NCBI GenBank assembly: GCA_025617745.1
Contig: CM046856.1
Coordinates: 43,081,049 to 43,145,048 of the forward strand
Reading direction: 5' to 3'
DNA length: 64,000 nt
Source: Heliocidaris erythrogramma
Lineage: Eukaryota; Echinodermata; Echinoidea; Camarodonta; Echinometridae
Part shown: in pieces, positions 4,758-63,816 of the stretch
Position numbering within the stretch: position 1 is the stretch's first letter
Layout of the letters: the number at the start of each line of letters is the position of its first letter
The notes under the pieces: generated by a model
Told to the model about the DNA's origin: nothing
Database searches by the model: none
Seen by the model: the letters and a program-made list of their open reading frames with translations, nothing else
Made by a program: the position numbers and the translations under genes

Positions 4758-6018
4758 ACAAGGGAAATGCCCAGGGCTGTCTCGCCTGCATCATGCAGTT
4801 TTCATTTGGTGAAAAATCAAAGATTTTGGGGTATTGATGGGGTGCTGCCCCTGAGCCGAGTGTTTTTTTTTAAGAAGCAGAATATGTGTACATGACATAA
4901 TTGTCATTGGGACACTTTCGGGATGGTACCCCTCCATCAGACCCCTTGAAAATAATGATCTACTATGAAGTCCCCTTCCCCTAAGAATGATTCCTACATT
5001 GTTGGTTACAATCTACATGTGGAAATATATTTTACAGAAGGAAAAATGTCAATTGGGTGTCACAGGCTTTGGGGGGGGGCCCTTCCCCCCCCCCAATCCA
5101 CTCCCTCCTTAAGGAATATACATGTATGTAGGTACCACATTTGCATTAATTTAGATCCTCTTTGCCTAAGGATGATTCTTACCTTGTATGGTTAGAACCC
5201 AGCCATGCATTTCAAAAATTTCTCATTTTCACTGTAGGGGCACTTAAGGGGTGTTGCCCCTGAGCCCCTTGGAGGCAAGGTACCCTGTTTCAGAAATTGA
5301 GGTCTTCTTCCTCTAAGGATGATATCTACAATCTTTGCTAACAGTCTTGCAACAGGGCTTAAAGAAGAAGCAAATATGAATCTAATTTACTGCTATGATT
5401 GGTGTGCTTGGGGATGGTGCCCCCAAGACCCCCCCCCCCCTCCTCCCCTATATTGATAGGCACCCCCATCTGTATTAATTTAGATCCTTCTTGCCTAAGG
5501 ATGATCCCTGCCAATTTTGGTAGAAATCCACCACCAGCAAAGTTTTGAGAAGTCAAATGCATGTGTACAATACATATATGTAGACACAAAACTGAATTTT
5601 ACCAAAAAATTAACCAAGTTAAAAGTTGTCAGTAGGTGACCTTTAATCATTTAATGTGATGAAAATGTAGGATTTGGGTATTCATTTGAAAGAGGGTCAC
5701 ATGAAGACAATCCCTACCAATAATGATGCCAAGTTTCAAAGAATTTGAACAAAAACTTTTGAAATAAAGTAAAAATTCAAAAACAAGTTTTTGGAACACA
5801 ATTTAACTCAATTGACCTTAATTGACCTTTGAACTTGAATTTTGACCTGAAATTGTTCCACATTATTTGTAATAGTCTACAACCCTTGTGTTCAAGTTTC
5901 CTGGAAATCGAACAAATACTTTTGAAATGAGAGCATTTCCAAAATTGTTGATGCTGCCACCACCGGAAAATGGCGCCTACATGTAGGTCTCGCTTTTTGC
6001 TAATACACAGGCGAGACA
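4758..6018. mobile_element. Dispersed 1.25-kb repeat, copy 1
   Basis: Shares start, end and internal order with 26319-27652. Both begin ACAAGGGAAATGCCC and GTCTCGCCTGCAT, carry G/C-run segments such as GGGTGCTGCCCC, and end with CAGGCGAGAC or GCAGGCGAGGC. TGTCTCGCCTG near the left (4778) and CAGGCGAGACA at the right (6008-6018) form an inverted pair. Internal 100-150-base units repeat phrases such as AAGGATGATYCCTRCCAATT and GACCTTAATTGACCTTTGA. No enzyme is recognised; the short open frames are incidental. Confidence 0.75.
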
Positions 6019-6219
6019 ATAAAGTGACAAAGTTACAAACTGTGCTTGACTCTTTATAAATTTAGGCATACTGTAATTTTCATTTCCGTCTACAGGTATT
6101 TTTCCAAGGTATGCCTTTATGACACCCTTGATACCAAAACAGTAATTGACTCATTTTGGAGCTCAGCTCCTTTCATGGACTGCTCTTACTTTATAAAGGG
6201 GATATACATGGTATACGTG

Positions 6220-21259: not shown

Positions 21260-22659
21260 ACTAGAAATGTCCATTGCCGTACAATGCAAATGTATCCCAC
21301 TGGCAGCGATTCGAAGGAGGGACAAAGAACCTCCCCCCCTCCCCTCCCTCAAACAAAAGGATGGCGTAGAGATTGCCGCCAGTGGCCCGGACTATTGCCA
21401 ACACCAGGAGCAGCATCACCAAAACGATGTGTGCAGATTAGAGTATAATGCATCTCTATAGAAAATTCGAAAGAAATCTGTCAAGAAATGTAACTTCAGA
21501 GCGCACACAAGATATCCACTAAAATATGACCTTTGACCCTATGAAAGACGGAACACTGGGGGCAGCATCACCAAAAACTGTAGAGGTCTAGAGTAATCTA
21601 TGATGGACCTCCATAAAAAATCTGAAAGAAATCAGTCAACAAATAATAAATAAAATAAAATAACTAATAAATAATAATAATCCAATTAAAGTCCACTCCA
21701 AATTTTATTAACCGAAATGGAAATTATTTTTGCCCAATTGATCGTGGGCCCGTGGCCCCGTCAGCCACTGTGCAGCGCCAGATCGATGTTGCACTATCCC
21801 TTCAATTGTTGAACGCCAAACAAGGTAGCAGCTACTCCCATCTTTTAACGTCTTTTGGTATGACGCGGCCGCTCTACTGACTGAGCCAACACATCGGTGT
21901 CCTCCAGAATGCATGCAACCAAAATATGACATTTGACCCTATAAAAAGTGGAACACTGGGGGCAGCATCAGCAAACAATAGAATCTGTGTAGATTTCACT
22001 AAGACACACCTCCATATAAAATTTGAAAGAAATACGTCAAGAAATGTGGAAGTTAGAGTGCACAAAAGACATATGACCTTTGACCCTATAAAGGACGGAA
22101 CAATGAAGGCAGCATCACCAAAAAGTAAAGATGTGTAGATTATACCAAGTTACATCTCCATGGAAAATTTAAACGAAATCCGTCAAGAAATGTGGCCTGC
22201 AGAGTGCATTCGCGCCATCCCCTGAAGTATGACCTTTGAGCCTATAAAAGACGGGACACTAGTTGCAGCATCACCAAAAACTATAGGTTTTTAGATTACA
22301 CCAAGAGACACCTTCATGCAAAATTTGAACGAAATCCGTTGAGAAATGTGACCGCCAGAGCGCACACAAGAGTGCACACAAGACATCTATCAATATATGA
22401 CCTTTGACCCTATAAAAGACGGAACACTGGAGGCAGCATCACCAAAATCTAGAGGTTTCTAGATTATACCAAGAGACACCTTCATGCAAAATTTGAACAA
22501 AATCCGTTCAGAAATGTGACCGCTAGAGCGCACACAAGAGTGCACACAAGACATCTATCAATATATGACCTTTGACCCTATAAAAGACGGAACACTGGAG
22601 GCAGCATCACCAAAAGCACGCAGCTAAATCCAAAGTAGATGGCATTCTGCCGGGGGATA
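21260..22659. mobile_element. Tandem-unit element (family C), copy 1, with SINE insertion
   Basis: Starts CTAGAAATGTCCATTGC and GTATCCCACTGGCAGC, ends TGCCGGGGGATAA. Between lie about six imperfect 150-170-base units, each with TATGACCTTTGACCCTATAA, GACGGAACACTGG, GCAGCATCACCAAAA, then AAATTTGAAMGAAATCCGT. A reverse-oriented SINE interrupts the first units. The second copy is at 62400-63816. The short Pro/Asp-rich open frames are incidental. Confidence 0.8.
21645..21898 (-). mobile_element. tRNA-derived SINE, reverse orientation, head partly deleted
   Basis: Reversed, this matches the SINE at 38300-38548: GGCTCAGTCAGTAGAGCG, then GCGTCATACCAAAAGACGTT, TTTGGCGTTCAACAATTG, the ATCGATCTGG-type segment and a tail in ATTATTATT. 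The tRNA-like head lacks the B-box portion present in the other copy, so it is dead for polymerase III. It is inserted within family C element copy 1. Confidence 0.8.
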
Positions 22660-27652: not shown

Positions 27653-27741
27653 AAAAAATAATGAAAAGATATCCCAAAGAAGTTTATTACAAGTCAACGT
27701 ATTCTATACAAACAAGAATCACAATTATCACTAAAGGTGAT

Positions 27742-28385
27742 TAATACCCCCGCACCAATGTGTGTGCCAAATTCCCTGAGCATTGCTCAAAAAATGAGGA
27801 AGTGGTTTGATCTGCAATATTTTCCCGTTTTATTGCCATATGTCGTTACCATGGCAACGCAGTTTGCAACACATTGAAACAATATGTCTTGCACATCTTC
27901 ACCACAAGAACAATGTGTGTGCCTAATTTCATAAGCACTGCTTGAAAAAGTGAAGAAGTTGTTTGCTCCGAAGTATTTTCCTGATTTATTGCCATATGTC
28001 GTTACCATGGAAACGCAGTTTCCGACACATTCCGAAAATATGTCCATCTTCATCCCAAGACAAATGCGTGTGCCAAATTTCATGAGCATTGCTCGAAAAT
28101 TAGAAAATAGTTCGATCCGCAAGATTTCCCAGATTTATTGCCATAATATGCCATTACCAGGGCAACGTACATTGTAGTTCCGACACATTAACAAAATATG
28201 TCTTGCACATCTTCATCTCAAGACCAATGTGTGTGGCGAATTTCACGAATTTCACGAGCATTGCTTGAAAAATGAGGAAGTAGTTCGATACGCAAGATTT
28301 GGAATGGACCGACCGCCCACCTGCCCGCCAGACCTTACGCTGATTCCTACATGTACCCCCTTCAAACTTTGTTTGGCGGGGGTAT
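27742..28385. mobile_element. Short-TIR tandem-unit element (family B), copy 2, with two X-box-like sites
   Basis: Starts TTAATACCCCCGC and ends GTTTGGCGGGGGTATC. About four units each carry ATATGTC, TTGCACATCTTC, AATGTGTGTGCC, AATTTCATRAGCA and GTTCGATCCGCAAG or a variant. GTTACCATGGCAAC lies at 27845-27858 and GTTACCATGGAAAC at 28001-28014; the last unit has a decayed ATTACCAGGGCAAC. Confidence 0.8.
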
Positions 28386-29560
28386 CAAAATATAATTCTA
28401 CCCCTAAATCCTCTTCCCTGCTAAGACCAAGACCTTAACTCAAATCTTTTTACACCGAGTCAATACCCTGGACTCCGAGCAAATGCTATCTGCATTCCTG
28501 ATTCCTTGCATATCCAACACAAAACAGCCCAGGAGAAATTTTACCAAAGAACTGCAACTGCAACAGTGAATAATTATAAAAAAATATCTTTTTTCTTACA
28601 GAAGAAAATAAATAAAATGTCAAATATTAGGCCAAGTAAAAATTGGGTTTCTCATCAGGAGTTTCAAAATTAAGGAATCTGATATAAATCTAAATACATG
28701 TACTGTATATTTCCCCAAACATGCAAATCCTGTCACTTCAACACAAATTTTCTGGATTCAATTTTCTTTGTCCACGCACTTCTAATACTGAAAACAAGGA
28801 ATAACTCTAATATACTGTACATGTCTATGACTTTTGTTACTTCACTTTCTAGATTTTCTTCTATTCTTTATTTCATATCCACAAAAAAAGTAAAAAATAA
28901 AATAAATCTTGAAAAGGGATCTAGCTGCATAGCTGGGGGGGGGGGGGGGGGGAATGTAGGAGGGGAAAAGGAAATAGGAATAATTTCTACTTGGCCAATG
29001 TTTAATTATTTCTTTTGCCAAATAATAAAGTCAAGAATCATGCAAACAAGTAACAAGTAGATGGTCTTCCTAACTACTTTGCATAGAATGCCATTGTCAC
29101 TGTATTAGAATGGAAAAAGACACCCATCTATGCAATATTTGTAACAGGTTTCATCATGAAAAATACCATTAATTCATGACAAATCTAACTCTAAACCCAC
29201 CATAGAAATATCTGTATTGATTATGTTGGCAAAATTTCACAGGCACTATTGAGAAATAGGCACACCTACAGACAGGCATTGACCATATGGTTGCACACAC
29301 ACCCAAACATATGTTCAATGAATAATTTTAGATATTTGAACTAGACAGGGAAAAAACAATGAAAACAAGTCCATATATGATTTTTAACATATCCAACACA
29401 CAGGAGGAGTCAATATAACATATAAAATTGTTGGAAGAGAGCAAATTTTAGCCCTTCAACCCTTCTCAGCTGTTGTAAACATTACATTGCCATATGCAGG
29501 AGAAAGTCACTGCACTGTATACACATGTATCTAGCACACACAAACTGCGCACACACTCAC
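28386..29560. other. Non-coding, presumed start of the long LARP4-like intron
   Basis: Lies just 3' of the donor at 29560 on the minus strand. AT-rich, with a G run at about 28936-28952. No repeat family recognised. Confidence 0.4.
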
Positions 29561-31403: not shown

Positions 31404-32149
31404 TAGTCCATGGGCCAGGAACCGAACAGGCTCCCCCCATGGCACACTTTTAAATGATGTTTTTCTGTTATAGGCCCGTCAGCTATCGGAATCTGCTTGT
31501 TTGCCATAAAGTTGGTGGTGGGTGTGGCCACGAGGGCTGTTACCATGGTAACGGATCAAGAAAAAAATGAATTTTAGGAAAATTCTTATAATTCCAATTC
31601 ACCAATCTAAAAATACTTGGCAAGCATCCTAAAATATGTATTGATCAGGGTGCCCGATTATTAGCTAGGACTCTCAACTATGATAATCCGCCTGTTTGAT
31701 GTAGGCCTACAGTTGGTGGTGGGTGTGGCCTCTAGGGCCGTTACTATTTACTAAAATACACTGGAATTTTATATTTGTAATTCAATAGCTTTAAAATATA
31801 TGGCAGGCATCCTAATATTATGTCGGCCTATTTCAAGCTGCCTGATCGACTGCAACCACAATCTGAGTCATTTAAAGTTATGGGCGTGTCAAAAAAGACC
31901 GTTGCTATGGAAACGGTCCAACAAAAAGCTGTTATTTGTGAAACAATCTATACCTAACCATTACAACAAAAAAGAAAGAGGTGTCTGCACAGTGTTTAAT
32001 AATGTTTTTATATTAGTTACCATGGTAACACGCCAGGGAATTGTATTTTAGAAAATAAAATAAAATTTGCAATTCACCATCACAAAAACAAAGTATAACC
32101 ATCCAACTATATGTATATGGGGGGGGGGGGGGGTAACATTGCTAGTCAT

Positions 32150-32415
32150 AAGGACCGCTTTTCATAATTATGGACCAGACCACTTATTCATAACGACCGC
32201 TGTCCATAACGCGTGACTAAATGAATAGCGTTTTGTATGAAAATGAGGTCCTTCTAAATAGCGAGCAACCATAGACAAACTTTACCTCGCTATTCATAAG
32301 GACCTCCATTCATAAGGACCACTATTCATAACTACAATGTATTCAAAAGGACCACTATTAATAAAGCATGTTAAATGAATTACGTTTTTTAATGAATATA
32401 GTGGTCCTTGTGGAT
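32150..32415. repeat. ATTCATAAGGACC palindromic array, copy 1
   Basis: Words close to GCTATTCATAAGGACC and its reverse GGTCCTTATGAATAG recur at least eight times in both orientations, giving a cruciform-capable segment. The better preserved relative lies at 53110-53490 and a fragment at 57140-57196. Confidence 0.75.
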
Positions 32416-32571
32416 AGCAAGCGGACCCCATATTGGGATGCCCGTTTAATTGCAAGCAGAATTGTAGTCATGCATTGGAAGTCACAATCATGTCAAAACA
32501 TGGCTGTTGCTATAGAAACAGTATGATAAAAATTGAACATTTCTGTAACTAACACTCTAGCGTACCCGATG

Positions 32572-32630
32572 GGGGGGGGGGGGAGGGCAGACTGCCCCCG
32601 ACAACTTTTTACCCAACCCCCCCCCCCCCC

Positions 32631-32667
<37 letters not shown>
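32572..32667. repeat. G run, then C15 followed by A36
   Basis: A G run at about 32571-32583, then about fifteen C and 36 A in a row ending at 32667. The minus-strand poly-Phe/Gly open frame at 32557-32760 is produced by these runs. The A run could be a retroposition tail, but no source sequence is identifiable. Confidence 0.85.
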
Positions 32668-32669
<2 letters not shown>

Positions 32670-33099
32670 AGTATAGATTCCTCCCCCTTTCTTTTAGAAC
32701 TTTTTTTGCTTGCTTGCTTGTCAGAGAATTGGACACCATAATATCTTGTATACCCCTCACTGTCTAAAAAAATAATTTTTGGACGGCTGGCGATAAAAAC
32801 AAAGTTTTTGAAGGGCTGGCGAGAAGAAAAAAAATACGGATCTCCCTACAAACAGTTTCCGCTCATCATTTTCTCGCAAGTTTTGCCCCTCTGCCACTGG
32901 TAACTAATCGATAAAAAACATAGAACAAGACAGTGTCTGTACAGCCTGAAATGGTGTTTATCTGTCAGCTAGGACCCTCAGCTATCACAATCGAAAGCTT
33001 CCTAATAAGCCACAAAGTTGGCTGTGGGTGAGACTGTCAAGGTAGATACCATGGTAAGGCATCAAGAAATATCTCATTTCTTTAATAATAAAGTAATTG

Positions 33100-33310
33100 A
33101 TCTTACTTACCCAGGATAGCCGCATCAGTAATATTACTGCCCTCCAATATTATCATTACCCAGCATTGCCCGGTATACATAATACATCTGGGTCAAGCGA
33201 AACAAAATGTGGGCAAAACACCTTGCCCAGGGATGTAAGCACCGATCAAGGATCGAATCCAAGACCTCTCGTATGAGAGTGAAAGGCCTTCACCAATATA
33301 TCACAGTGCT
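33100..33310 (-). mobile_element. tRNA-derived SINE inside X-box element copy 1
   Basis: Reversed, it reads ATATTGGTGAAGGCC, CTCTCATACGAGAGGTCTTG, GGATTCGATCC (B box), TTGATCGGTGCTTACATCCC, CCCAGATGTAT, CAGTAATATTACTGATGCGG and CCTGGGTAAGTAAGATC. The homologous SINE occupies the homologous place in copy 2 (43235-43460). Confidence 0.8.
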
Positions 33311-34162
33311 TCCACCATGTATTTTTAATGTAAGGAAGTATAATGTAGGCAGAAGCTGCGCCTTTGAGTTTGAGTGCAATTAAAAGCCGGGTCATCTTAG
33401 GTCATACACGGTCATATAAAAATATGTTGTTAAAGGAATAGCATAATAAGAAAGCGAAATTGTTTTTTGAAGAAAGGAATATTTATGTATCTAAATCATG
33501 AATTATCATAAACAAGCCTGGCTTCATGAATTTGTAACTGTCCTGTTGGTCACAGGTGTAGCCAGGATTTTTCAATAGAGGGGGCCAGACGTGAAGGATC
33601 CAACCTCATACTCAGGATTTCATTTTAGGGGGCGGTGCAAATTTGAGAGAAAGATAACCGCTCGTAACACTTTTTTTTTTAAGGAGGAAAGTTAGTTCGA
33701 CGCCCTGGCTGCTTTTCCGTTATTTGGATGGAATACTGCACTGTATGTAACAGGGGTGGGTGCAGGGAGGGGGGAGTTTCCCCCTTCCCGCACGAAGCGC
33801 GAAAGCTCTGACGTTTTAGCAAATTTGAGAGGAAGATAACGGCTCGTAACACTTTTTTTTTTTAGAGTGCGAAATTGGTGATGAGCACACAAAACGTGCT
33901 CCCAAGGGGTGAGTGCAGGGAGGGAGAGTTTCCCCCTCCCGCGCGAAGCGCTAAAGCTCTTACGTTTGAGAGAAAGATAACGGCTCGTAACACTTTTTTT
34001 TAGGCGGAAAGTTATAGTTCGACTCCCCGACTGGTTATTAATTACTTGGACGGAGATAACGGCTTGTATCAAACCATTTTTGTAGGCGGAAAGTTATAGT
34101 TCGACGCCCGGACTGCTTTTCAATTGTTTGGACGCAACATTTCACATGCGAGGGAGCGAAGC

Positions 34163-34906
34163 CAGTGACGTATCTATAGGGATTATGGCGCCCGGGGCTA
34201 ACAATGAAGTTATATCCCCCCCCCCCCCCCCCCCCGAGTGCCCCAACATATCTTTATTATTGTACAAGCGAGGGAGCAAAGCGACCGAGCGGCCAATTTT
34301 TTAATTTTTAACCCTAAAAAACGCATTTTCTTGTGCATTTTACCCAGGAAATTTTGCATTTGACCACCGCAGTTGAGCGGTAGAGAAGCTCGAATTTTAT
34401 ACATTCACTCACTTCTACAATCGGGAGCAGAACTAACGAAAACTCTAGCTATAGGCTTGAAAAATTCAGCAAGGCGACCTGAAGTTGAGATTTCTTTCAA
34501 GTTTGCAAAATGCTGTTTTATACATTTTATCCTATATTGGGAGCGCAATATTTAGCAGGAGTCATATGAAACTTACATGATATAGCGAGCAAAGCAGTTT
34601 TTGAACCCTTTAAGCTATTTAAGAACTATATACTGGGGGAGTGAAATTACGAGATCCTGAAAGAAAATAATTATGCGAGGGAGCAAAGCGACCGAGCTTT
34701 GGACAATTTTCGCATTTCAAACCTTCAAAAACTAGATTTCTAGTGCATTTACCCTGTGGATTTGGGGATGCGTGATCCGTAAAGATTAGGATTTTTCTTC
34801 ATTTCCCCCTATTTTTCTTTTTCTCCCTCCTTTGCATTTATTGCGCCCCTTCCAAGTGCTGCCCGGGGCACGTGCCCCCTGCCCCGGCCCCCTAGATACA
34901 CCACTG
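34163..34906. mobile_element. Non-autonomous hAT-like element
   Basis: Starts CAGTGACGTATCTATAGGG and ends, reversed, CAGTGGTGTATCTAGGGGG. Flanks are AGCGAAGC (34155-34162) and AGCGAAGA (34907-34914), seven of eight matching, as for hAT eight-base duplications. Inside, GCGAGGGAGCAAAGCGACCG recurs at about 34267 and 34676. No transposase is recognisable. Confidence 0.65.
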
Positions 34907-35130
34907 AGCGAAGAGAGACCGCACGGTGGTGGGAGGAGGTATCCCCCTCCTACATCAGGGAATTTTTCAAAAATCTGTCTATAAAACTTGCATTTGGGAT
35001 GCACTTGCATCCCAAAATGGTTTTTAATTTTTTTTTTTAGTGGCTGAATAGGGGGGGGGGGCATGCTTGGTATAGGTGTTGTACTGTTTGTGTCTGTGAG
35101 CACCAACAGCATCTTCAAAATATTGGCATT

Positions 35131-36177
35131 TCATAAAGTGGCATTGTTGTAGTTGACAGACTTCAGAAGTACATACGGAACTATACTAACGTTAATTCCC
35201 TCTAGGGTGAAGTGAGGATTCACTCATCATCTTCATCCTCACCACAGAGACCTCACTCAAGCATTGCAAAAAATTGCATTCTATTCCAACATAGTGATGG
35301 AGGTAGATGGCATCTCCATCCTGAGTTTTCTGCCAAACCAAACACCAGCAAGACTGGATAATCTCCTCACCATACCCTTCTCAGCCTGTGATTCAAGCCA
35401 GATAAGTGTGCCTCACCATATCAGACTTGTAAGAGAGTCAACAAAGTTTTCATAAGAGATTGCTCAGTTCAATAAGGATGCAGAAAAGCCTTAAAGCTTT
35501 AAAAAATATATAGATAAACCCACTGATGGTCACTGATTTCACAACATCATGAACCCCCATCCTTTATCCGACCATGCTTATATGGCAAGATAGTTCAAGA
35601 AGTATTGGCTATATTTCCTGTAAATCCAAGAGAACTGCAGCTTACACGTACGGGCAACCAATATGTAAACTTATAGTTCTTATATGGTCCCCAACACATC
35701 AAGTCCATGGCTAATATACAATAATTGTACCACCAATCATGCAAGTCATGATAATGCTGAGCTGCAATTGCACCACAGGCCTTCTCAGTGGATCTTTTGA
35801 ATACCTGCATGCAGCAAACATAAAAAACTCCAGGCAGCTGTCAGCGCTTTAGTCCTGGACTAAAGTTCTTTGTTTTTGATGAAGTCCAAATCCTAGACCA
35901 CCTTGGTCATGCAGATTTCTCATGGGCAGGATTAGGAAAAAAGTTTGTTAAATTCTATTCCAATCTATTCAAATAGACAGGTTTAGCTAAAGATCGACAA
36001 GTTAAAGGAGAACGAAACTCGACATACATTAGCTGATATTCATGTGGAAATTTGTCAGTCTGTTCAAAATATCTTGAAAATACTCTGATTTGATTAATCA
36101 GTAAGGAGAACAGTCTCACACACAGTTTACACACCCTCAGCCCACCCACACACACACACACTATATATATATATATA
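35131..36177. other. Unassigned DNA, one exon-like open stretch
   Basis: After an acceptor-like TTAATTCCCTCTAG (ends 35203), the plus strand is open for about 50 codons, reading GEVRIHSSSSSSPQRPHS, to a stop near 35360. No family is recognised, and a Ser run in a repeat-rich region is weak evidence. Minus-strand open frames at 35595-35810 and 35955-36188 are also unrecognised; the latter crosses CA and TA runs. Confidence 0.3.
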
Positions 36178-36793
36178 CACTCAACCAAAAAAGTAAGTTC
36201 CCCTCTAGCATTTTTGGATATATCTCAAAAAGTATTTTACCGATTTTCATAATTCAAACGGAATGGATAGGAAATTTTATTACTCATAACATGAATGGCA
36301 TATTATTGCCACCAGATATCATTATTGGTGTAAAAAAATGCATTTTATGTCAAAATGCATGGGAAAAAAAGTTGCACTTAAGGTTATATGAAGCATATTG
36401 TGTACATTTCCTATGCAAGTTAGCAAATGACCTTTTTAAATTGTTATGTAATTCTCAGGAATTTCTTCAGGTACAATATGTTTCCCTATTAAAGTGTATG
36501 CTCATGAAAAGAAAGAGATAGAGAAATATGCAATAAACCATGTTCAGAATCATTGTTTGATTATTTCTGTAAAAGTCAATGCAAATCACTAAAGTGCAAC
36601 TTTTTTTACCATGCATTTTGACATAAAATGCATTTTTTCACACCAATAATGATATCTGGTGGCAATGATATGCCATTCATGTTATGAGTAATACAATTCC
36701 CTATCCATTCCCGTTTGAATTATGAAAATCGGTAAAATACTTTTTAAGATATATCCAAAAATGCTAGGGGGTACTTACTTTTTTCGTTGAGTG
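36178..36793. mobile_element. Mariner/Tc1-like MITE with about 200-base inverted arms
   Basis: Starts CACTCAACCAAAAAAGTAAG and ends, reversed, CACTCAACGAAAAAAGTAAG. The arms match over about 200 bases (36178-36379 and 36592-36793). It sits in a TA run, so flanking TA is present on both sides. The central 36400-36590 is AT-rich and non-coding; the frame at 36291-36521 crosses an arm. It is nested in X-box element copy 1. Confidence 0.85.
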
Positions 36794-36805
36794 TATATAT
36801 AATAA

Positions 36806-36838
<33 letters not shown>

Positions 36839-37059
36839 CGGGGAAATCATACTCCCCAGGTATGAGGACCTGTCTACGCCAATGGTCCTACCTAACACAA
36901 AAATAAGAGTTAAGATTGTGCAGATGGTTGTTTTCTATTTTGTATTTATTAATGATATTTTTCACAAAAAGCAGCATTTTGTGGGACCGCTTCCATAGCA
37001 ACGGCATTTTTTTTACACGCCCATGACTTCAGAAATCTCATATTTTGGTTGGAATCAGT

Positions 37060-37365
37060 GGAGGTGTCTTGGTCTAGTGCATGGATAAGTCGCCGGATTG
37101 TGGAGCACAAGGTGTGGGGTTCAGTCCCAGCCATGACACTAACGTCCTTTGGCAAGACATTAATCTACATTTTGCCACTCTTCACCCAGGTGAGGTAAAT
37201 GGTACCCGATAGGAAGGAATTCTTGAATGCTTGCATGAGCACCACGGTAGCTCATCTAAAGCCGGGGTAATAGTATGATTGCAGGACCCTCAGGGAGAAC
37301 AGTATAATACCGATGAGTCTATCCTGGGTAAACAAGACATATTATATTATTATTATTATTAGAAT
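37060..37365 (+). mobile_element. tRNA-derived SINE, full length
   Basis: Head with TGGTCTAGTGCATGGATAAG (A-box/D-loop-like) and GGGGTTCAGTCCC (B box). The body has CATGACACTAACGTCCTTTG and GAGGTAAATGGTACCCG, and the tail is CCTGGGTAAACAAGACATAT followed by ATT repeats. It interrupts an inverted X-box unit. A 3' fragment of the same family, reversed, lies at 53365-53455. Confidence 0.8.
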
Positions 37366-37540
37366 CCATATATTTTATGCTGTTAAATGACAAATATACG
37401 GTATTTTCTAAATTGCAGTATTTCCTTGATATGTTACCATGGCAATGGCCATGGTGGCCACACCCACCAAAAAATTAAGGCAAACAGGCAGATTCTGATA
37501 GCCGAGGTTACTAGCTATACCAGGAAAACATCAATAAAAA

Positions 37541-38285
37541 ATGTTCGGACAAGAATTTTGTGAATGACATGGATTGTCTAAGTAACTGAGAGTCGCAGTG
37601 GGTGATGCAAATGTTGTGAATTTGTTTAAAACTTTTAAGTCTTTAGTACTAATAATCTAATATAACATAAATTTGCAGTATACCTTGGTTAAATTTAAAG
37701 AGAACTGTTGCTGGTCTAGCGCCATGAGCGTCCTTGGACGGTGTGTGCGCTATACGTTTACACCATTATTATTTAGTGGGGTGAAATCTCATATATAATT
37801 ATGTAAAATGGGGTGACTATTTCGGGACAGGCTCCCAGATTATTAGTTACGTGTCATCTCCTTATAGTCTGGGAGCCTGCCTGTCCAGCAATATAGTCAC
37901 CCCATTTTACATTTTGACCATCTAAGTCAATGCAGGTTGTCAGCCTGAGTCGGGTCGATTTCACCCCATCTCCCCCATGCATGCACCAAACTTTGTCAGT
38001 AGGAAGTAGTATGACTGGACATAACAAAACACACAAAACATGACAAAAATTTCAGTTGGGATGGGGTGTCAGACGGCCCCTAAAAATTGGGGAATATTTT
38101 CTCCCTTGAAGTCCAGGGACGCAATTTTGTCAGAAGAAAGAGCTATGGGTGTACATTCCAAAATTATAAAAAACGGACAAATTGTCCATCGGGAAGGGGG
38201 TGCCAGACCCCCTGAAACAAAAACACCAAGGTGCTCTTTGACAATGCTTAATTTGCGCCCAAAATGTTATGTATGAAAAGAAAAA
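37541..38285. other. Intergenic, one local inverted repeat
   Basis: No gene recognised. About 37800-37915 holds an inverted pair: GTAAAATGGGGTGACTATTT with CTGGGAGCCTG-type sequence reversed around a short loop, a small fold-back element. Confidence 0.4.
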
Positions 38286-39404: not shown

Positions 39405-41714
39405 AGTTCTTCTTCTTCTTCCTCTTCCTTTTCCTCTTTCTTACAAGTTCTTCTTCTTCTTCTTCTTCTTCTTCTTCGCTTATATTGAGAGTAATTTTGG
39501 AATTGTGTCCCCCTCCCCTTTTACCATAATCCTGGATCCGCCACATATGATCAAACTTTTGGAATACAGCAGATTATGGTAGCCCCCCCCCCCCCCGATG
39601 TAAAATTTGAAGGGGTGATTAGGGCGCGATTGATCCTCCATAAAGAAAAAAATGTGTGGGGAGGGGGGGGGGGGGCTAAAATAATAGATGAGACACAATA
39701 GCGGGCATATTCTTCTTCTATTTTTTGTATGTATGGGTATACCAGATTAAGTTTTGCCCAGGGCGTTGCCCCCATGCCGCCCGCGATCTGCCAATGTATA
39801 TGTTGTTTTGTTTATTGGAGGCCCGTGATTTGTTTTCTTTTTCACTGTATCTAATGTCGTGTATCGTATATAGAGCTTCATTTCAAGAAAGTAAAAGCGA
39901 ACTCAATTTATTTTGATTTTTTGAAATATGATTTATGAATAAAGTGAAAAAGATCATTGGTTTTAAAAAACACTCAAAAGCAGTTTTAGGCTTAACAAGA
40001 AAGGGCCATTGTTTTGCATGAACTGATGAAGGGGTATTACCTATAAGGTACATTATCTGAAGAAACTGACAATAATATATGATGTTTTATACAGTCTATT
40101 TACAAGCTTAATAAACCAGGCTGTTTCACTATGCTACCGCTACGAGTACGTTTAGGCCTATATATAACGAACCCTATTTCATTTTCGGAATTACGAACCT
40201 TCGGAGTAATGTATCAAAATAATGTTCGGAATTATGCACCCTAATTCATTTTCGGAATTATGAACCCCCTGCTATGGGAAATTCGTGTTTCGGAATTACG
40301 AACCTTCGGATAAACGACTACCCCCCTATGGTTTTGGTGCGCTGTCAGCCGATCTTATAGCATGCGGTCCCCACCTCACACAGTGTTTTGATTGTGGTTC
40401 TAAATAGTCGTATAAATGTGCATGTTTGATATTCATATTATTGTTTAGAACCTGAATCGGGTAGATTTTATTTGTTAAAATGCCCATATTTAATGTTATT
40501 TGATTTACTTCAAAATTCGGATCGCAGTCGATCGTAATGTGCGATGGGCTTTAGCAAAGATCTTAAGATCTTGGCTTTAGGCACTCACTGCTTCTGAAGT
40601 TTAAAACCCTTCCCTTTGGAGGGGGGGGGGATAAAAATTCATTTTATTTTTGACAATTTATCATAATTATGGTAGTGAAAATGTTATTTGGACATCAGAA
40701 TCATTATACTGGATAAAGATATAACCGAGGAGTTATAACTCCTTGATATAACACTACAAAAATACCACCTTATTGCCTGAATAGTGCATGGGTGCCCGAA
40801 TATGAGGTGGTGATTGGCCGAATGTTGGTAATTTCGAAATTCTCTGGTCTGCCCCCCCCCCCCCCCATCTCATACGCTATACGCGTGAGTGCTTATCGTA
40901 ACCAGTGTTAGACATACCTTTTCAATCGCGGTGCTAGAACGATTTTCCACCTGTCAAATAACATGGCGATAGCAAGAGAACCCATACGTCCATCGTGGGG
41001 GGGGGGGGGTACTTTTGGTCGTGGGAAGAGAGATTTTTGAGCTGTAACAGATCAGAGCCTTGTAAAAAGAATTTTGATGAAATGATATTGAGAAATTAAA
41101 TATTTGTATATTTCCTATATAGTCGTTTATCAATTATTACTTTCACCAGCGTAGGCAGACTTGCTGAACACGGGGGAGGTGCACAGGCACTGACGTATCA
41201 AGGAACTAGTGCCCTGGGCAAATCAGAGCCAGCTCTGGGGCAAACTAGTGTCCCTGTATTAAAGAGTTGCGACATGGACGTCCCACTTTTCTGGAAACAA
41301 AATGGCGTTCGAATTCTTTCTATTGAGAACACCCAGGTGCTCATCGGAAATGAATAGAAATGTTACGTAACAGTGGAAACAAAATGGCGTTCAAATTATA
41401 AACCCAAAAGGTGAATGAATAAATTTGAGGATTTTGAGTAAATGTGATGACACAATTTTTCTTGTTTTATTTTTTTTAGTATAATGCCATTTCCGTTCTT
41501 GTCAGAAAATTTTTCGGAATTACAAAATCTAGAATCCGCTCCTGCGGCTGTTGTTACTTAAATTTTTTTTCTTACCCCCCCCCCCCCTTCATTCAGCATT
41601 CTCAAATCACACTATTCAACACTACGTGGCGAGGGAGGGTTTTATAGGATGTAGCCTGCCCTCAGAATTTTGAAATCACCTGTAATAATTGGGCAGTATA
41701 ACCTCATGACATAG
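38549..41714. other. Intergenic DNA with low complexity and repeated TTCGGAATTA words
   Basis: No gene recognised. 39330-39478 is a TTC/CTT polypyrimidine tract. 40170-40310 repeats TTCGGAATTAYGAACC-like words four or five times. Poly(C)/poly(G) runs lie near 39584, 39664, 40621, 40854, 40997 and 41576. TGACAAAT/ATAATT-rich sequence fills the rest. Confidence 0.45.
39330..39478. repeat. TTC/CTCC polypyrimidine microsatellite
   Basis: Nearly uninterrupted C/T on the plus strand, with ACT, TTC and CTC triplet runs. The poly-Ser, poly-Leu and poly-Glu/Lys open frames on both strands are artefacts of it. Confidence 0.9.
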
Positions 41715-44700
41715 TAGTCTATGGGCCAACGTAGACCCCCTCCCCCCCCCCCCCTTAGGCACAATTTTTAGTGATGTTTTCCTGGTAGCTAGGACCCTCG
41801 GCTATCAGAATCTGCCTGTTTGCCATAGAGTTAGTGGTGGGTGTGGCCACCAGGGCCGTTACCATGGCAACGCATCAAGGAAATATGGGAATTTACTAAA
41901 ATACCTAATATTTCTAATTCAGAAATTTGAAAAATGACTGGTAAGCATCTAAATATATGTATTTTGTGTTTCCTGATTGATTAAAACCAAAATCTAGGTC
42001 ATTTGAAGTCACGGTCATGTCAAAACATGGCCGTTACTATGGAAACGGTACCATAAAAAGTTTATATTTTAGAAAAATATCTAAACTTATCAGTATAAAA
42101 TAGACAGAGAGGTGTCTACACAATCTTAGATTATATTTGTCTATTAGCTAGGACCCTCAGCTATCATAATCTGCCTATTTTCCTTAGAGTTCATGGTGGG
42201 CGTGGTCGCTAGGGCCCTTACCATGGTAACACATAACGAAATACTGGAATTTAGAAAATACCGTATATTTGTCATTTAACAGCATAAAATATATGGTAGG
42301 CCTCTAATATATGTATTTCAAGCTGCCCCACTGATTCCAACCACAATCAGAGTCATTTGAAGTCATGGGCGTGTAAAACAGGGCCGTTGCTATGGAAACG
42401 GTCCCACAAAATCACTTATCATTTCACAGATGACCGTGAACTCAGTACCGACACATTAATTGCAGTTAGCAGTACAGTCAGAAATTAACTTTATAAAAAA
42501 TAATATCACTACCAACAACATCTTTCGTGTTGTCAAATCACAGAAATATGCCACTTTTTTCTAAATATAGATTCCTCGATCATAATCTGCCTTAGCAGCG
42601 ACCATATTTGGATATGATCATTGTCTTAAATGATTAAGATTTTCAATGCAATCATTCAGACTGCTTGCAATGGAGATATCTAGCATGTCTAGACTGTTAT
42701 ATTGTTTTAAAATAATGTTAAACTAAAACACTGCCACTTTCTGAAATGCCAATATTTTAAAGATGCTTTTGGTGCTCACAGCCACAGTACAACACCTACC
42801 AAGCAGTCAAAGTTAATACTGCCATACAACAACACAGTAGATGAGAGTATTAAGTACAGTGGTAACTTTTCAATATGCAATGAATTTTCAGAAGCCTTGC
42901 ATATCTATTTGAACATTTGCATCTTCGTTTGTCATAGTAAGTGTCCTACCAGGCATGAACTTGAGGCCTCCAACCTGGAAAATATTCTTGATCTGGATTT
43001 GAACCAATAGGACAGTTACAAATTTATGAACACAGGCACTTGTTTATAATTCATTATTTAGATACATAAATATAAATATCCCTTTCTCCAAAATTTAGCT
43101 TTCTTATCATTCTTTTCCTTTAGCAACGGCATAATTTTATATGACTGACCTAAATTCATCCGGCTTTTGATTGCAATTAAAGGCGTAGCTTCAATTGTTT
43201 ATAATTAGATGCCTACATTGTACTTTGTTACATTACAAATACATGGTGGAAGCAATGTGGTATATTGGTGAAGGCCTTTTACTCTCATACGAGAGCTCTT
43301 GGATTCGATCCTTGATCGGTGCTTACATCCCTGGGCAAGGTGTTTTGCCCACATTTGTTTTGCTTGACCCAGATGTATGAAATGTGTACAAGGCAATGAT
43401 AGTTGCAGGGCAGTAATATTACTGATGTGGTTATCCTGGGTAAGTAAGATCAATTTATTATTATCTATTATTCTAAAACTCTGATGTTTCTTGGTGCCTT
43501 ACCATGGTAGCTACCTTGACAGTCTCACCCACAACCAACTTTGTGGCTACTAGGAAGCTTTCGATTATGATAGCTGAGGGTCCTAGCTGACAGATAAACA
43601 CCATTTTAGGCTGTACATACACTTGTTCTTTGTTTTGTGTTGATTAGTTACAGAAATATTCAATTTTTATCATACTGTTTCTATAGCAACAGCCATGTTT
43701 TGACATGACGGTGACTTCCAATGACTCTGATTCTACTTGCAATCAAACGGGCACCCCAAAATACATATAGTTAGATGGTTACAATTTGTTTTTATGCTGC
43801 TAAATGACAAATATACGGTGTTTTCTAAATTCCAGAATTTCTTTATGTTACCATGGTAACGGCCCTAGTGGCCACTCCCACCATGAACTCTATGGAAAAC
43901 AGGCAGATTATGAGAGCTGAAGGTCCTAGCTAACAGAAAAACATGATTTAAGATTGTGCAGACAGTTGTTTCATATTTTGTATTGATATATCATAGATAT
44001 TTTCCACAAATATCAGCATTTTGTGGGACCGTTTCCATAGCAACAGCCCTTTTTTTACACGCCCATGACTTCAAATAACCCAGATTGTGGTTGGAATCAG
44101 TGGTTCAGCTTGAAATACATATATTAGAGTCCTTACCATATATTTTATGCTGCTAAATGACAAATATGCGGTATTTTCTTAATTCCAGTATTTTGTTATG
44201 TGTTACCATGGTAACGGCCCTAGCGGCCACGCCCACCACCACCTTGATGTTAAACAAGTAAATTATGATAGCTGAGGGTCATAACTAATATAAAAACATT
44301 ATAAAAGACTATGCAGACACCTTTTTCTTTCTATTTTGTAATGGTTAGTTATAGATTTTTTTCACAAATAACAGCTTTTTGTTGGACCGTTTCCATAGCA
44401 ACGGCCTTTTTTGACACGCCCATGACTTTAAATGGGTCAGATTGTGATTGCAATCTATCAGGCAGCTTGAAATACACATAATGGGATACTTACCACATAT
44501 TTTATAGCTATTGAATTACAAAGATGCAGTATTTTCTAAGAATCCAGTATTTTTTATGTGTTACCATAGTAACGGTCCTACAGGCCACACCCACCACCAA
44601 CTGTACATCAAATAGGCAGATTATGATAGCTGAGGGTCCTAGCTAATATATACATATATACACCTTTTTGGCTATTTCATATTAATATATTTAGAAAGTT

Positions 44701-45062
44701 GTCAAAAATACCCGCTTTTTATGGTACCGTTTCCATAGTAACGGCCATTTTTTGACACGCCCATGACTTTAAATGGCTCTGATTATGGTTGCAATCGATT
44801 GGGCACCTTAAAATACATATATTAGGATGCTTACCAAGTATTTTTAGATTCGTGAATTGGAATTATATGACTTTTCCTAAAATTCATATTTTTCTTGATC
44901 CGTTACCATGGTAACGGCCCTGGTGGCCACACCCACCACCAACTTTATGGCAAACAAGCAGATTCTGATAGCTGAGGGTCCTAGCTAACAGAAAAACATC
45001 ATTTAAAATTGTGCCTAAGGGGGGGGGGGGGGGGACCTTTTCGGTTTCTGGCCCATGGACTA
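41715..45062 (-). mobile_element. X-box array element, copy 2, with both ends
   Basis: Bounded by inverted TAGTCTATGGGCCA (41715-41728) and TGGCCCATGGACTA (45049-45062), 3348 bases. The left arm holds X-box-like palindromes at 41858, 42033, 42217 and 42386; the right arm, in opposite orientation, at 43847, 44031, 44212, 44389, 44560, 44729 and 44902. Spacing is 169-184 bases throughout. Sites alternate between GTTACCATGGTAAC and GTTTCCATAGCAAC (or the reverse, GTTGCTATGGAAAC). Each is accompanied by GGTGGGTGTGGCC or ATGGGCGTGTC and by GCTAGGACCCTCAGCTATCA. It contains the SINE at 43235-43460. It is collinear with copy 1 read in the opposite direction. No transposase or other protein is recognised. 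Confidence 0.75.
43235..43460 (+). mobile_element. tRNA-derived SINE inside X-box element copy 2
   Basis: TATTGGTGAAGGCC, TCTCATACGAGAGCTCTTG, GGATTCGATCC (B box), TTGATCGGTGCTTACATCCC, GACCCAGATGTATG, GGGCAGTAATATTACTGATG, CCTGGGTAAGTAAGATCAAT and an ATT-rich tail. It is the counterpart of the reversed SINE at 33100-33310. Confidence 0.8.
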
Positions 45063-45089
45063 TAGAGGGGTCTCTTTGTAACCTAATAT

Positions 45090-45236
45090 CAGTGCCGTAT
45101 ATAGAGAGAGAGTCTGGCCAACTCGGTTTCAGTTGGGTAGCAACATGGCGTATGTAAGCTTGCAACAAATGAATATGCGCCATGTTGTTACCCAACTGGA
45201 GCCGAGTTGGCCAGACTCTATCTATATACGGCACTG
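45090..45236. mobile_element. 147-base hAT-like MITE with perfect 8-base duplication
   Basis: A near-perfect fold-back: CAGTGCCGTATATAGAGAGA at the left and CAGTGCCGTATATAGATAGA at the right when reversed, with arms of about 60 bases including TCTGGCCAACTCGG and AACATGGCG. CCTAATAT at 45082-45089 and 45237-45244 is an exact eight-base duplication, diagnostic of hAT-type insertion. The 116-codon minus-strand frame crossing it is rejected. Confidence 0.9.
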
Positions 45237-46954: not shown

Positions 46955-47892
46955 TACGATGATGGTGATGATTATAACGATCGTGATAATAGCAATGATA
47001 ATTCCAAAGCAGATATGAGTGATAATGGTAAAGAATAATGATGATGATGATGATGATGAAGAAGAAGAGGAAGAGGATGGGTTGATGATAAGAAAAATGA
47101 TTATGATGCGAGGATGATGAAGATGATGACGATGATAATGACAATAATGATGGTAATGATAATGGTGATGACGACAATAATAGTTAACCGAAGGTGCTGA
47201 TAATGGCTATGATGAAAATAATAGAAATAAACATGATAGAGCTGATATGAATGATGATAATGGCAATGATGATGGTGGTGCTGATAATGGTGATTATTAT
47301 AATGACGATGACGGTGGTGATGTTGATGATGATATTACGACGATGGTGGTAGTGGTGGTGAAGATAATGATGAAAATGATGGTAATGATGATAGCGATGG
47401 TGAATATGATGATAATGATGGCGGTAGTGAAGGTGATGGTGATGGTGATGATGATGATGAAAATGATGGTGGTGATGATGTTGATGCTGATGTTGATGAT
47501 GATGGTGGTGGTGAGGTTGATAATGATGTTGGTGGTGAGGTTGATGGTGATGTTGATGTTGATGTTGATGTTGATGATGATGATGATGATGATTATGAAG
47601 ATGATGATAGTGGTAGTGTCGGTGAGGTTAATGATGTTGATGATGATGATGGTGATGATGGTGGTGGTGGTGGAGAAGTTGATGATGATTATGAAGATGA
47701 TGACAGTGGTAGTGGCGGTGAGGTTAATGATGATGTTGATGTTGTTGATGATGATGATGAAGTTGATGATGATAATGTTGATGTTGATGTTGATTATGAT
47801 GGTGGTGGTGAGGTTGATAATGATGGTGGTGGTGAGGTTGATGGTGATGTTGACGATGATGATAGTGGTAGTGGCGGTGAGGTTAATGATGT

Positions 47893-47923
<31 letters not shown>

Positions 47924-48776
47924 GTTGATGATGATGTTGATGTTGATGTTGATGATGGTGGTGGTGAGGTTGATAATGATGGTGGTGGTGAGGTTGATGG
48001 TGATGTTGATGTTGATGTTGATGATCATGATGTTGATGATGATCATGATGATGTTAATGATGATGGAGATGGTGGTAGTGGTGGTGATGATGATGATGGT
48101 GGTGGTAGTGGTGAGGTTGATGATGTTGATGATGATGATGGTGATGATGATCATGATGATGTTAATGATGATGGAGATGGTGGTAGTGGTGATGATGATG
48201 ATGATGATGGTGAGGTTGATGATGATGTTGATGATGATGGTGATGATGGTGGTAGTGGTGAGGTTGATGATGATGTTGATGATCATGATGATGTTGATGT
48301 TGATGATGATGATGGTGATGATGGTGGTAGTGGTGAGGTTGATGATGTTGATGATGATCATGATGATGTTAATGATGATGGAGATGGTGGTAGTGGTGAT
48401 GATGATGATGGTGAGGTTGATGATGATGTTGATGATGATGGTGATGATGGTGGTAGTGGTGAGGTTGATGATGATGTTGATGATCATGATGATGTTGATG
48501 TTGATGATGATGATGTTGATGATCATGATGATGTTGATGTTGATGATGTTGATGATGTTACTGATGGTGATGATGATGGTGATGATGGTGGTAGTGGTGA
48601 GGTTGATGATGATGTTGATGATGATCATGATGATGTTAATGATGATGGAGATGGTGGTAGTGGTGATGATGATGATGATGATGGTGAGGTTGATGATGAT
48701 GTTGATGTTGATGATGATGGTGATGATGGTGGTAGTGGTGATGTTGATGATGATGTTGATGTTGATGATGGTGATG

Positions 48777-48807
<31 letters not shown>

Positions 48808-48910
48808 TGGTGGTGATGGTGGTGAGGTTGATGATGATATTGATGATGGCTTTTGATGATAGTGGTGTTGGTGAGGTTGATGATGATGTTGATGATGATG
48901 ATTATAATGA
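46955..48910. repeat. GAT-rich satellite block 1
   Basis: Almost wholly GAT/GGT/GTT triplets, with higher-order phrases such as GGTGGTAGTGGTGAGGTTGA and GATCATGATGATGTTGATG recurring every 100-150 bases. It is open in several frames (573 codons of Met/Val/Leu/Lys on plus, 443 of Ile/Thr/Asn on minus) because triplet repeats rarely form stops. None of these is a credible gene. Confidence 0.9.
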
Positions 48911-50345
48911 TGTCCTGATCTCTTTGAAAAGGAAAATGGTCATAGATCTCAACGAGTTATTGGTATAATTATTACTATTTCGCGATTAATATATCATTGT
49001 CATTACCAGGAATATTTACCATAGCATGTATCAGGCCTATTTCGTGCATAAGCATGTGTTGTTGTTTTTTTTATGGAGGATGTGAAATAAGGAAGAAATG
49101 ATATAAAATTAAATTAAATATTGGTTACTTGTTCAAATTTTACCCACTAGTGCCTTCTATTAACGTTCGAGTTCTTTAACGTCATTACGAATACGTTGAA
49201 TGATTTTAACACATTTGTAGGTTTCTTTTTATTTTTCCTAAAGCGTGTGTGGAGGTGCGTGTGGGTGTGGGTGTTATGTGGGTGTGGTTGTGTGTGTGTG
49301 TGTGTGTGTGTGTGTTATGATAATTATTAGGATGAAAATGATGAAAATGAATGTTGATGTTGATGATGATGATGATGATAATGATGATGATGGTGGTGGT
49401 GGTGAGGTTGATAATGATGATGATGATTATGAAGATGATGATAGTGGTAGTGGTGGGGAGGTTAATGATGATGTTGATGTTGATGATGATGATGTTGATG
49501 TTGATGATGATGATGTTGATGTTGATGTTGATGATGATGGTGGTGGTAAGGTTGATAATGATGGTGGTGGTGAGGTTGATGGTGATGTTGACGATGATGA
49601 TGTTGATGTTGATGATGATGATGATGATGATGATGTGGACGATGTTACTGATGGTGATGATGATGATGATGATGATGATGATTATGAAGATGATGATAGT
49701 GGTAGTGGCGGCGAGGTTAATGATGTTGATGATGATGATGATGGTGGTGGTGAAGTTGATGATGATTATGATGATGATGTTGATGATGATGATGAAAGTG
49801 GTGGTGGTGAGGTTGATGATGATGATGGTGCTGGTGGTGAGGTTGATGATGATGTTGATGATGATGATGATGATGATGATGATGTCCTGATCATTTGTTT
49901 CTACGACTTTGTCTAATTAACTCCATTGTCAATATATTTTATATTTAAGGACGGGAATGAAAATCTTTTTGAGAAGGAAAATGGTCTTAGGTCTTAACGA
50001 GTTGTTGGTATAATTCTTACTATTTCACGATTAATATATCATTCTCATTACCAGGAATATTTACCATAGCATGAATAAACTCAAAAGTACAAATATGCAC
50101 TTACATTATGCAATATTGTTAAACATAATGTATCAGGCCTATTTCGTGCATAAGCATGTTGTTTGTTTTTTATGGAGGATTGTGAAATAGGAAGAAATGA
50201 AATAAAATTAAATGAAATATTGGTTACTTGTTCAAATTTTATCCCTAGTGCTTTCTATTAATGTTCGAATTCTTAAAACGTCATTACGAATACGTTGAAT
50301 GATTTTTAACACATTAAATTTGTAGGTTTCTTTTGAAAGATATAT
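48900..50345. repeat. Second copy of the satellite plus its unique flank (tandem duplication)
   Basis: The flank at about 48905-49235 (GAAAATGGTCATAGATCTCA, CATTACCAGGAATATTTACC, TATTTCGTGCATAAGCATGT, ACGAATACGTTGAATGATTT) is repeated at about 49975-50335 after a second GAT block at 49330-49890. Each flank leads to a TG-repeat run (49283-49316 and 50438-50465). This is a tandem duplication of satellite, flank and TG tract. Flanks differ by small indels and a 60-base insertion near 50075-50130. Confidence 0.8.
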
Positions 50346-52102: not shown

Positions 52103-52456
52103 ATGAAGGAAACGTATATAGCTATGGCTACAGCAGTAAATGTCTGCATATTGAACCCATGTTGTTCTTTGTACACCTTTGATAGGACGTACAACCAAAA
52201 TAAAGTAATTTCCATGCAGAAGCTGCCATATTATTCAAATCAAATAAGAGAGGAAAATCTCCGTCTGGAAGACGAAGTCTTCAATCAACAGACTATATTA
52301 TGCGAGCCTCACTTTCGGGACTTCTGTTACCAGGCAACGCCATCTCGTGTCGTTCTTAGTTGCTATGGAAACGTCTCCTTTCTCTACCTCATCATCATTT
52401 TTTATCCACCGCACCTCCTCGCCGTCCATCCCTCTGACTCTTCTGCGGCGCAATAA
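52103..52456 (+). other. Unrecognised 117-codon open frame after an acceptor-like site
   Basis: TTTTTTTTTATTTCAG ends directly before ATGAAGGAAACG, an unusually good acceptor context. The frame then reads 117 codons (including IREENLRLEDEVFNQQ) to a TAA. I recognise no domain; the C-terminus is hydrophobic then Pro/Ser-rich. Two RFX-like words, GTTACCAGGCAAC at 52326-52338 and GTTGCTATGGAAAC at 52359-52372, lie inside it. It could be a stray exon, a repeat remnant or chance. Confidence 0.2.
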
Positions 52457-62399: not shown

Positions 62400-63816
62400 A
62401 CTAGAAATGTGCATTGCTGGGGCCGCGCAATGCTAAATGTATCCCCCGGCACTGGCAGCAATTTGAAGGAGGGACAAAGACCCTCCCCCATCCCCTCCCT
62501 CAAACAAAAGGATGGTGTAGAAATTAGATGTGTAGGTTTCACTAAGACACATCTTCATATAAAATTTGAAAGAAATGTGTTGAGAGATATACCAAGATAC
62601 ATCTCCATACAAAATTTGAAAGATATCCATCAAGAAATGTGGCCTGCAGAGTGCACTCACGCCATGCCCTGAAGTATGACCTTTGACCCTATAAAAGACG
62701 GAACACTGGTGGCAGCATCACCAAAAACTATAGGTTTTTAGATTACACCAAGAGACACCTTCATGCAAAATTTGAACGAAATCCGTCAAGAAATGCAGAA
62801 GTAAGAGTGCAAGAAATGGAAAAATGACCTTTGACCCTATAAAGGACGGAACAATGAGGGCAGCATCACCAAAAATTAAATATTTGTAGATTATACCAAG
62901 ATACATTTCCATACAAAATTTGAATGAAATCCGTCAAGAAATGCAGAAGTAAGAGTGCACAAAAGGGACAAATGAGCTTTGACCCTATAAAGGACGGAAC
63001 AATGAGGGCAGCATCACCAAACAGTAAAGATGTGTAGATTATACCAAGATACATGTCCATACAAAATTTGAAAGAAATCCATCAAGAAATGTGGCCTGCA
63101 GAGTGAACTCACGCCATCCCTTGAAGTATGACCTTTGACCCTATAAAAGACGGGGACACTGGTGGCAGCATCACCAAAAAGTACAGATTTTTAGATTACA
63201 CCAAGGGACACCTTCATGCAAAATTTGAACGAAATCCGTCGAGAAATGCAGAAGTTAGAGTGCAAGAAATGGAAAAATGACCTTTGACACTATAAAGGAC
63301 GGAACAATGAGGGCAGCATCACCAAAAATTAAACATGTGTAGATTATACCAAGATACATCTCCATACAAAATTTGAACAAAATCCGTTGAGAAATGTGGC
63401 CTGCAGAGTGCACTCACGCCATGCCCTGAAGTATGACCTTTGACCCTATAAAAGACGGAACACTGGTGGCAGCATCACCAAACACTATAGGTTTTTAAAT
63501 TACACCAAGAGACACCTTCATGCAAAATTTGAACGAAATCCGTTGAGAAATGTGACCGCCAGAGCGCACACAAGAGTACACACAAGACATCTATCAAAAT
63601 ATGACCTTTGACCCTATAAAAGACGGAACACTGGGGGCAGCATCACCAGAAACTATAGGGGTCCAGATTTTACCAAGATACACGTCCACAGGAAGTCTGA
63701 AAGAAATTCGTCGAGAAATGTGACCGCTAGAGCGCACACAAGAATGTGACGCGGCGGCGGCGGCGGCGAAACGCTGCTGAATCCAAAGTATCCTCCGGCA
63801 TACTGCCGGGGGATAC
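62400..63816. mobile_element. Tandem-unit element (family C), copy 2, in the eIF1 intron
   Basis: Starts CTAGAAATGTGCATTGCTGG; TGTATCCCCCGGCA near 62437 is the exact inverse of the right end TGCCGGGGGATACA. About seven units of roughly 150 bases follow, each with TGACCTTTGACCCTATAAA, GACGGAACA, GCAGCATCACCAAA, ATTACACCAAGAGACACC or a variant, and AAATTTGAACGAAATCCGT. Unit types alternate (AACACTGGTGGCAGC versus AACAATGAGGGCAGC). A GGCGGCGGCGGCGG run lies near 63752. Minus-strand open frames here (for example 62718-62912, 62866-63060) are near-identical because the units repeat; they are not genes. Confidence 0.85.

Follow-up and report, generated by a model that had tools for sequence, protein, structure and literature searches.

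The locus considered here, positions 41715 to 45062 of a 64,000-nucleotide stretch of the Heliocidaris erythrogramma genome (the window, C4:43081049-43145048), carries inverted arms in which sites resembling the X-box of RFX transcription factors recur at nearly even intervals. This raises the question of what kind of element it is, and of why such sites should be arrayed along its arms.

Ends, copies and architecture of the element

The inverted ends proposed by the earlier note to bound the element were borne out by a genome-wide end search. They lie at 41715..41728 on the forward strand (T type, TAGTCTATGGGCCA) and at 45049..45062 on the reverse strand (C type, TGGCCCATGGACTA), are inverted copies of one another differing solely at the C/T position, and have the triplet TAG, a target-site duplication, on either side (41712..41714 and 45063..45065). 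The pattern TAGTCYATGGGCCA describes the inverted ends of the whole family. In the genome searched, which comprises 1.064 Gb in 26 contigs, there are 536 + 556 exact ends versus 4 + 0 in the control, hence these boundaries do recur; a search with the whole element gave at least 181 matches, with 40 of 2,886 first-look candidates scored. Twenty copies were fetched as 10-kb stretches, 14 of which have both ends (allowing one mismatch from the form searched for) and measure 5.8-7.1 kb. The 3-bp flanks are identical in 13 of these 14, L024 being the exception, and the triplets are TAA in five copies, TTA and ATA in two each, and TAG, CTA, TTT and TAT in one each.

Full-length elements measure about 6 kb; the copy in the window has been shortened to 3.3 kb by an internal deletion. 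It aligns to L014, one of the full-length copies, over element positions 1-692 and 3547-6115, and relative to it lacks 2,854 bp (element positions 693-3546) at the junction 42411..42412. The rest of the central region (42412..43497) includes a tRNA-like, SINE-type stretch at approximately 43240-43440 that was spotted by eye and in which ARAGORN detected no tRNA. As L014 has this stretch too, the insertion probably predates the spread of the family. An older copy of the same family, or more than one, has left pieces on the reverse strand at 31404-32124, 32430-32552, 32900-33550, 35064-36003, 36884-37061 and 37366-37551, and the total span of these (31404..37551) suggests that they belong to one element. 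Immediately to the right of the window copy, a 54-nt inverted repeat at 45100-45228 (89% complementary, with a 21-nt spacer) is likely to be a small MITE.

The features of the foldback structural class, long inverted arms of tandem units and recurrent ends with a short target duplication, are both present, and the element is best read as a non-autonomous cut-and-paste foldback DNA transposon. FB and the sea urchin foldback elements have an architecture like that of Tetris. The part of the Tetris report available, which mentions both beside it, describes an element of Drosophila virilis with inverted arms in which the number of tandem units, each of about 220 bp, varies, a middle without apparent coding capacity, a non-autonomous mode of life and a driver that was not found (PMC4079207). 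The element studied here resembles Tetris in its long inverted arms of tandem units and in being non-autonomous, and differs from it and other foldback-like transposons, as far as that text describes them, in its units of approximately 355 bp with two X-boxes each and its 3-bp target duplication. The foldback architecture is thus already known; the new part is the arms of RFX sites, for which a role is suggested below. Among the matches listed from the open-licence literature, titles and the starts of abstracts contain no account of arrays of RFX sites or X-boxes in transposons.

X-box sites in the arms and their conservation

The left arm (41729..42411, forward strand) and the right arm (43498..45014, reverse strand) are inverted with respect to one another, as had been claimed, with for instance 202 nt alignable at 83% and 174 nt at 86%. 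The RFX X-box consensus, in the form used by the earlier note, is GTHNYYATRRNAAC. All eleven sites described there were located at their coordinates, and ten of them fit this consensus exactly. The left arm holds an A site, GTTACCATGGCAAC (41858..41871), a B site on the forward strand, GTTACTATGGAAAC (42033..42046), a second A site, CTTACCATGGTAAC (42217..42230), which is off consensus at its first base, and a second forward B site, GTTGCTATGGAAAC (42386..42399), the A sites being unstranded. The count of seven for the right arm (43847, 44031, 44202, 44389, 44560, 44729 and 44902) proved incomplete, because that arm also contains an exact consensus fit at 43677 and an off-consensus site at 43498 (two mismatches from the pattern searched for), so that 11 of the 13 sites in this copy are exact. 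The claimed regularity of spacing stands, but its upper limit does not, the range within arms being 169-187 rather than 169-184. Over the whole window there are 59 matches with at most two mismatches, against 11.3 expected and with none of 100 shuffles reaching 59, in a count that covers both strands and therefore includes most sites twice. Outside any array seen, two X-box-like sites stand close together at 52326-52372 (GTTACCAGGCAAC at 52326 and GTTGCTATGGAAAC at 52359), perhaps marking a genuine RFX-regulated promoter.

Across copies, the arms are built of tandem units of approximately 355 bp in which one A site, most commonly GTTACCATGGTAAC, alternates with one B site, most commonly GTTGCTATGGAAAC. 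Neighbouring sites are on average 176 bp apart (sd 14; 245 intervals below 260 bp in 14 copies), hence the near-nucleosomal interval previously remarked upon holds good as a spacing. When up to two mismatches are allowed, each of the 14 copies has 19-23 sites, including some in the centre; 14-18 are consensus-exact. The 65,311 flanking bases outside elements in the fetched stretches contain two consensus matches.

To avoid picking units by their motif, profiles of the A and B flanks with the 14 X-box bases masked were used to scan 27 loci along with the window. The X-box was present in 218 of 219 A matches (170 with 14 uninterrupted letters and 48 with a site at most 12 bases away, the remaining one having no letters there) and in 186 of 201 B matches (184 clean and two with a site nearby, the other 15 being uninformative because the alignment breaks off inside the site or a little short of it). 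Among the 170 clean A sites, position 6 is C in 147 and T in 23, and position 11 is T in 135, C in 34 and A in one; among the 184 clean B sites, position 4 is G in 143, A in 40 and T in one, and position 9 is G in 147 and A in 37. Bar one inner A unit (GCTACCATGGTAAG, 22 of the 170 clean A sites), which has drifted at the specified positions 2 and 14, the variation therefore sits at positions 4, 6, 9 and 11. The pairs 4/11 and 6/9 occupy equivalent places in the two half-sites, and the RFX consensus leaves all four positions degenerate, which it does not do for positions 2 and 14.

The X-box ranks first of 134 profile windows in conservation in B units and seventh of 123 in A units, where shifted alignment rows probably depress its rank; the rows of these profiles are not independent, and represent only about 20 independent unit positions. 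It is also the top window in an alignment of 21 units picked by motif (0.81 versus a mean of 0.58). Diversity between the 14 copies is 0.0087 in X-box columns versus 0.0221 in other columns. When sets of 14-column windows were drawn at random from the arms, a fraction of 0.0002 of the 5,000 sets reached this level. In both this and the following comparison a motif vote decided which columns counted as X-box, a source of mild bias. Variants shared between copies occur in 1 of 280 X-box columns and 104 of 3,269 other arm columns (p = 0.0028, or p = 0.013 without CpG columns), whereas the depletion of singletons, in 13 of 280 and 262 of 3,269 columns respectively, is weak (p = 0.047, or p = 0.095 without CpG columns). 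The stronger depletion of shared variants agrees better with selection on the mobile lineage than with selection on individual copies. The earlier note had regarded copies without the sites, sites kept no better than adjacent sequence and ends that do not recur as telling against its reading; in the foldback family, the copies carry the sites, the sites are more conserved than the rest of the arms and the ends recur.

A second X-box family and ends without the A site

The motif GTTNCYATGGNAAC is found 16,345 times on the forward and 16,399 times on the reverse strand of the genome, compared with 71 and 79 matches to its reversed control, an excess of about 230-fold in counts that score near-palindromes on both strands. 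A B-type 18-mer is present 823 + 820 times (control 0 + 0). In part, the 16,345 matches reflect a second family with X-boxes, which consists of tandem units of approximately 156-161 bp, is represented by 1,810 + 1,619 exact 23-mers (control 0 + 0), and reaches at least 17 units at C1:13631526-13635092 among the matches listed. A member of this family lies at 27735..28400 of the window, on the forward strand, with sites at 27845, 28001 and 28153. In nine copies, its X-box is kept no better than the rest of the unit (0.127 versus 0.105, p = 0.885); this drift at the pace of the flanks means that the second family gives no sign of retention after insertion. It has 20 bases in common with some A units (GCCGTTACCATGGCAACGCA) and, judged by eye, little else; a common origin of the X-box core in both families is conceivable. 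It is tentatively suggested, as a possibility short of the probable, that two distinct transposable element families each acquired regularly spaced arrays of host RFX sites, amounting to more than ten thousand X-boxes; they would then be selfish DNA exploiting a regulator of cilia and sperm, which they may rewire or titrate.

Other arrays in the window have different contents. Tandem repeats of approximately 148-168 bp at 21922-22615 and 62676-63743 have units with a nuclear-receptor-like DR1 (TGACCTTTGACCC), and TGACCTTTGACCY is found in exact form ten times in the window, always on the forward strand and eight times inside the DR1-containing arrays, which are possibly another repeat family arraying a site like that of a transcription factor. 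Very long degenerate ATG/GAT trinucleotide arrays occupy 47038-48912 and 49338-49884 (approximately 625 and 182 units).

Not all elements sharing the ends of the foldback family have its subterminal site in exact form. Of the 1,092 exact ends, 483 (237 + 246; control 0 + 0) have an exact A site where its distance from the end predicts it. Among the first 100 ends, from C1 and part of C2, 46 have it and 54 do not. These 100 ends include 26 convergent pairs less than 25 kb apart. In 18 of the pairs one end or both are of the C type, and each such pair has the A site at one end or both. The other eight are T/T pairs, spanning 6.5-20.7 kb, with an exact A site at neither end in any of the eight, and comparison by eye placed no B-type 18-mer in their spans among the matches listed. 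This implies that T/T ends do not seem to need the A site, although X-box variants are possible in the arms of these elements; 38 of the 54 ends without an exact A site fall outside T/T pairs.

The T/T elements may include the driver. One long pair was considered for this role, L039, but the 5.9 kb of its interior that was read (C2:3337600-3343500) showed two pieces matching the reverse transcriptase family RVT_1 in different frames, which on our own reading are broken and of the non-LTR type, and did not reveal the driver. At E 1e-5 this interior matches none of the 14 full copies, and it contains one X-box-like site, at the mismatch limit.

With regard to superfamily, the length of the target duplication fits PIF/Harbinger (3 bp), in which the duplication is TWA, and seven of the 13 triplets are TAA or TTA; it also matches that of Zator. 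Duplications of 3 bp fit Academ or CACTA-like elements as well, and autonomous copies of Academ carry an XPG-type nuclease. In the portion of one account available, 3-bp duplications are given for both Zator, which has an ISAzo13-like transposase, and the Harbinger group (PMC10045372). A Pfam search with seven central pieces of L014 found no family at E up to 1. Across the genome, PF07592 (the Zator ISAzo13-like transposase) had no match and was equally silent in all 14 controls, PF00867 (XPG-type) had four matches, none of them on C1 or C2, where the 26 end pairs lie, and among the 150 of 581 DDE_Tnp_4 (PF13359) candidates scored, no C1 or C2 match was seen by eye inside those pairs.

Host RFX factors and alternative explanations

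The leading explanation, to which slightly less than an even chance is given, is that the arms of this foldback transposon array sites for host RFX, and that RFX is bound there with an occupancy that aids the spread of the element. Each core would be bound by a dimer of host RFX factors reading the two GTTNCY half-sites, and occupancy of many sites would help the element to spread, most simply by opening chromatin or by promoting expression or transposition in ciliated or sperm-forming cells, where RFX is abundant. The transposase would come in trans from an autonomous element. The earlier suggestion of a transposon that recruits RFX-type factors is upheld by the copies, ends, duplications and masked-core searches in so far as it concerns a transposon with RFX-site-like cores, the recruitment itself being a prediction from the match of these cores to the consensus. 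Favouring this reading are the symmetry of site variation between half-sites and its confinement to RFX-degenerate positions, inner A unit excepted, the arraying of the same site by a second family with a different sequence outside it, and the T/T ends that seem to do without the A site. It is weakened by the unexceptional conservation of the second-family X-box, the drift of the innermost A unit and the rank of the A X-box, by the weak depletion of singletons and the small number of independent unit positions, and by the 54 of the first 100 ends without an exact A site, most of them outside T/T pairs.

A parallel is offered by the D sequence of the AAV inverted terminal repeat, likewise a terminal repeat of mobile DNA, which according to the accessible part of one study is bound by the host factors RFX1 and RFX3 (PMC5760533); as described there it is not an array, and it is the end of a virus, of unrelated origin to these arms. 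If RFX does bind the arms, then the transposon packs 14-18 consensus-exact sites for a regulator of germline and cilia into each full copy, and offers a natural experiment on the driving of mobile DNA by host factors and on the response of a genome to so many of these sites. Arms of RFX sites would also supply one testable reason for the tandem-unit build of foldback arms.

The main rival is that the X-boxes are subterminal sites for the element's own transposase or an accessory protein, arranged in Galileo-like arms and resembling RFX sites by convergence, which is considered possible but doubtful. The regular repetition in both arms is in keeping with this, and its best point is that the terminal repeat contains CYATGG, the core of the X-box with the same C/T variation. 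This hints at a transposase motif, the longest run that the repeat has in common with the degenerate X-box being 7, a length reached by 3.8% of 20,000 random 14-mers from the window. En/Spm-type subterminal repeats, bound by TNPA, are similarly a short motif repeated near both ends, although motif and protein differ from those here, and the target duplication of Galileo differs in length from 3 bp. Galileo, of the P superfamily, provides a precedent, in that its long arms are described in the text available as having tandem units with repeated protein-binding sites, including extra sites for the transposase (PMC3688188); those sites bind Galileo's own THAP domain, unlike the host factor proposed here. 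Against sites for a transposase stand the eight T/T pairs, which have the ends without an exact A site or a listed B-type 18-mer, variants being possible; the second family, which arrays the same site in a different context; and the manner in which site variation tracks the degeneracy of the RFX consensus.

That the arms grew by unit duplication, and that DNA structure, replication or gene conversion between the arms preserves the palindromes passively, is unlikely. The arms are indeed inverted, tandem and partly alike, and many A sites are perfect palindromes, but the description of every site as a palindrome fails for the B sites, about half of the total and mostly GTTGCTATGGAAAC, which break the symmetry at 4/11 and 6/9 and are still the best-kept block of their profile. 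The upkeep of hairpin centres, one of the readings first offered, is disfavoured on this account, as is passive upkeep by the fact that, in an alignment centred on motif matches, A units are unlike B units along most of their length yet have the X-box in common. Least probable of all, and very unlikely, is that the sites serve the host, copies being maintained as ciliary enhancers or RFX decoys, since the roughly 16,000 motif matches (230-fold over the reversed control) and the near-nucleosomal spacing in its favour are countered by the drift of the X-box along with its flanks in nine second-family copies, and by the constraint in the foldback family, which shared variants show more clearly than singletons.

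The binding protein postulated by the host RFX reading was also sought as a passenger of the transposon. With all 28 candidates scored, the RFX domain (PF02257) gives 12 exon-sized matches at about nine loci only, which would correspond to a host-sized set of RFX genes. A transposon-borne RFX domain was rejected, no high-copy carrier having been found among these; this low copy number speaks against a domain encoded by a high-copy transposon, and not against another protein with a like preference. At C11:35393369-39464762, RFX-domain matches occur at four places on one chromosome, some of them with stops; an RFX gene may have expanded locally or left relics there.
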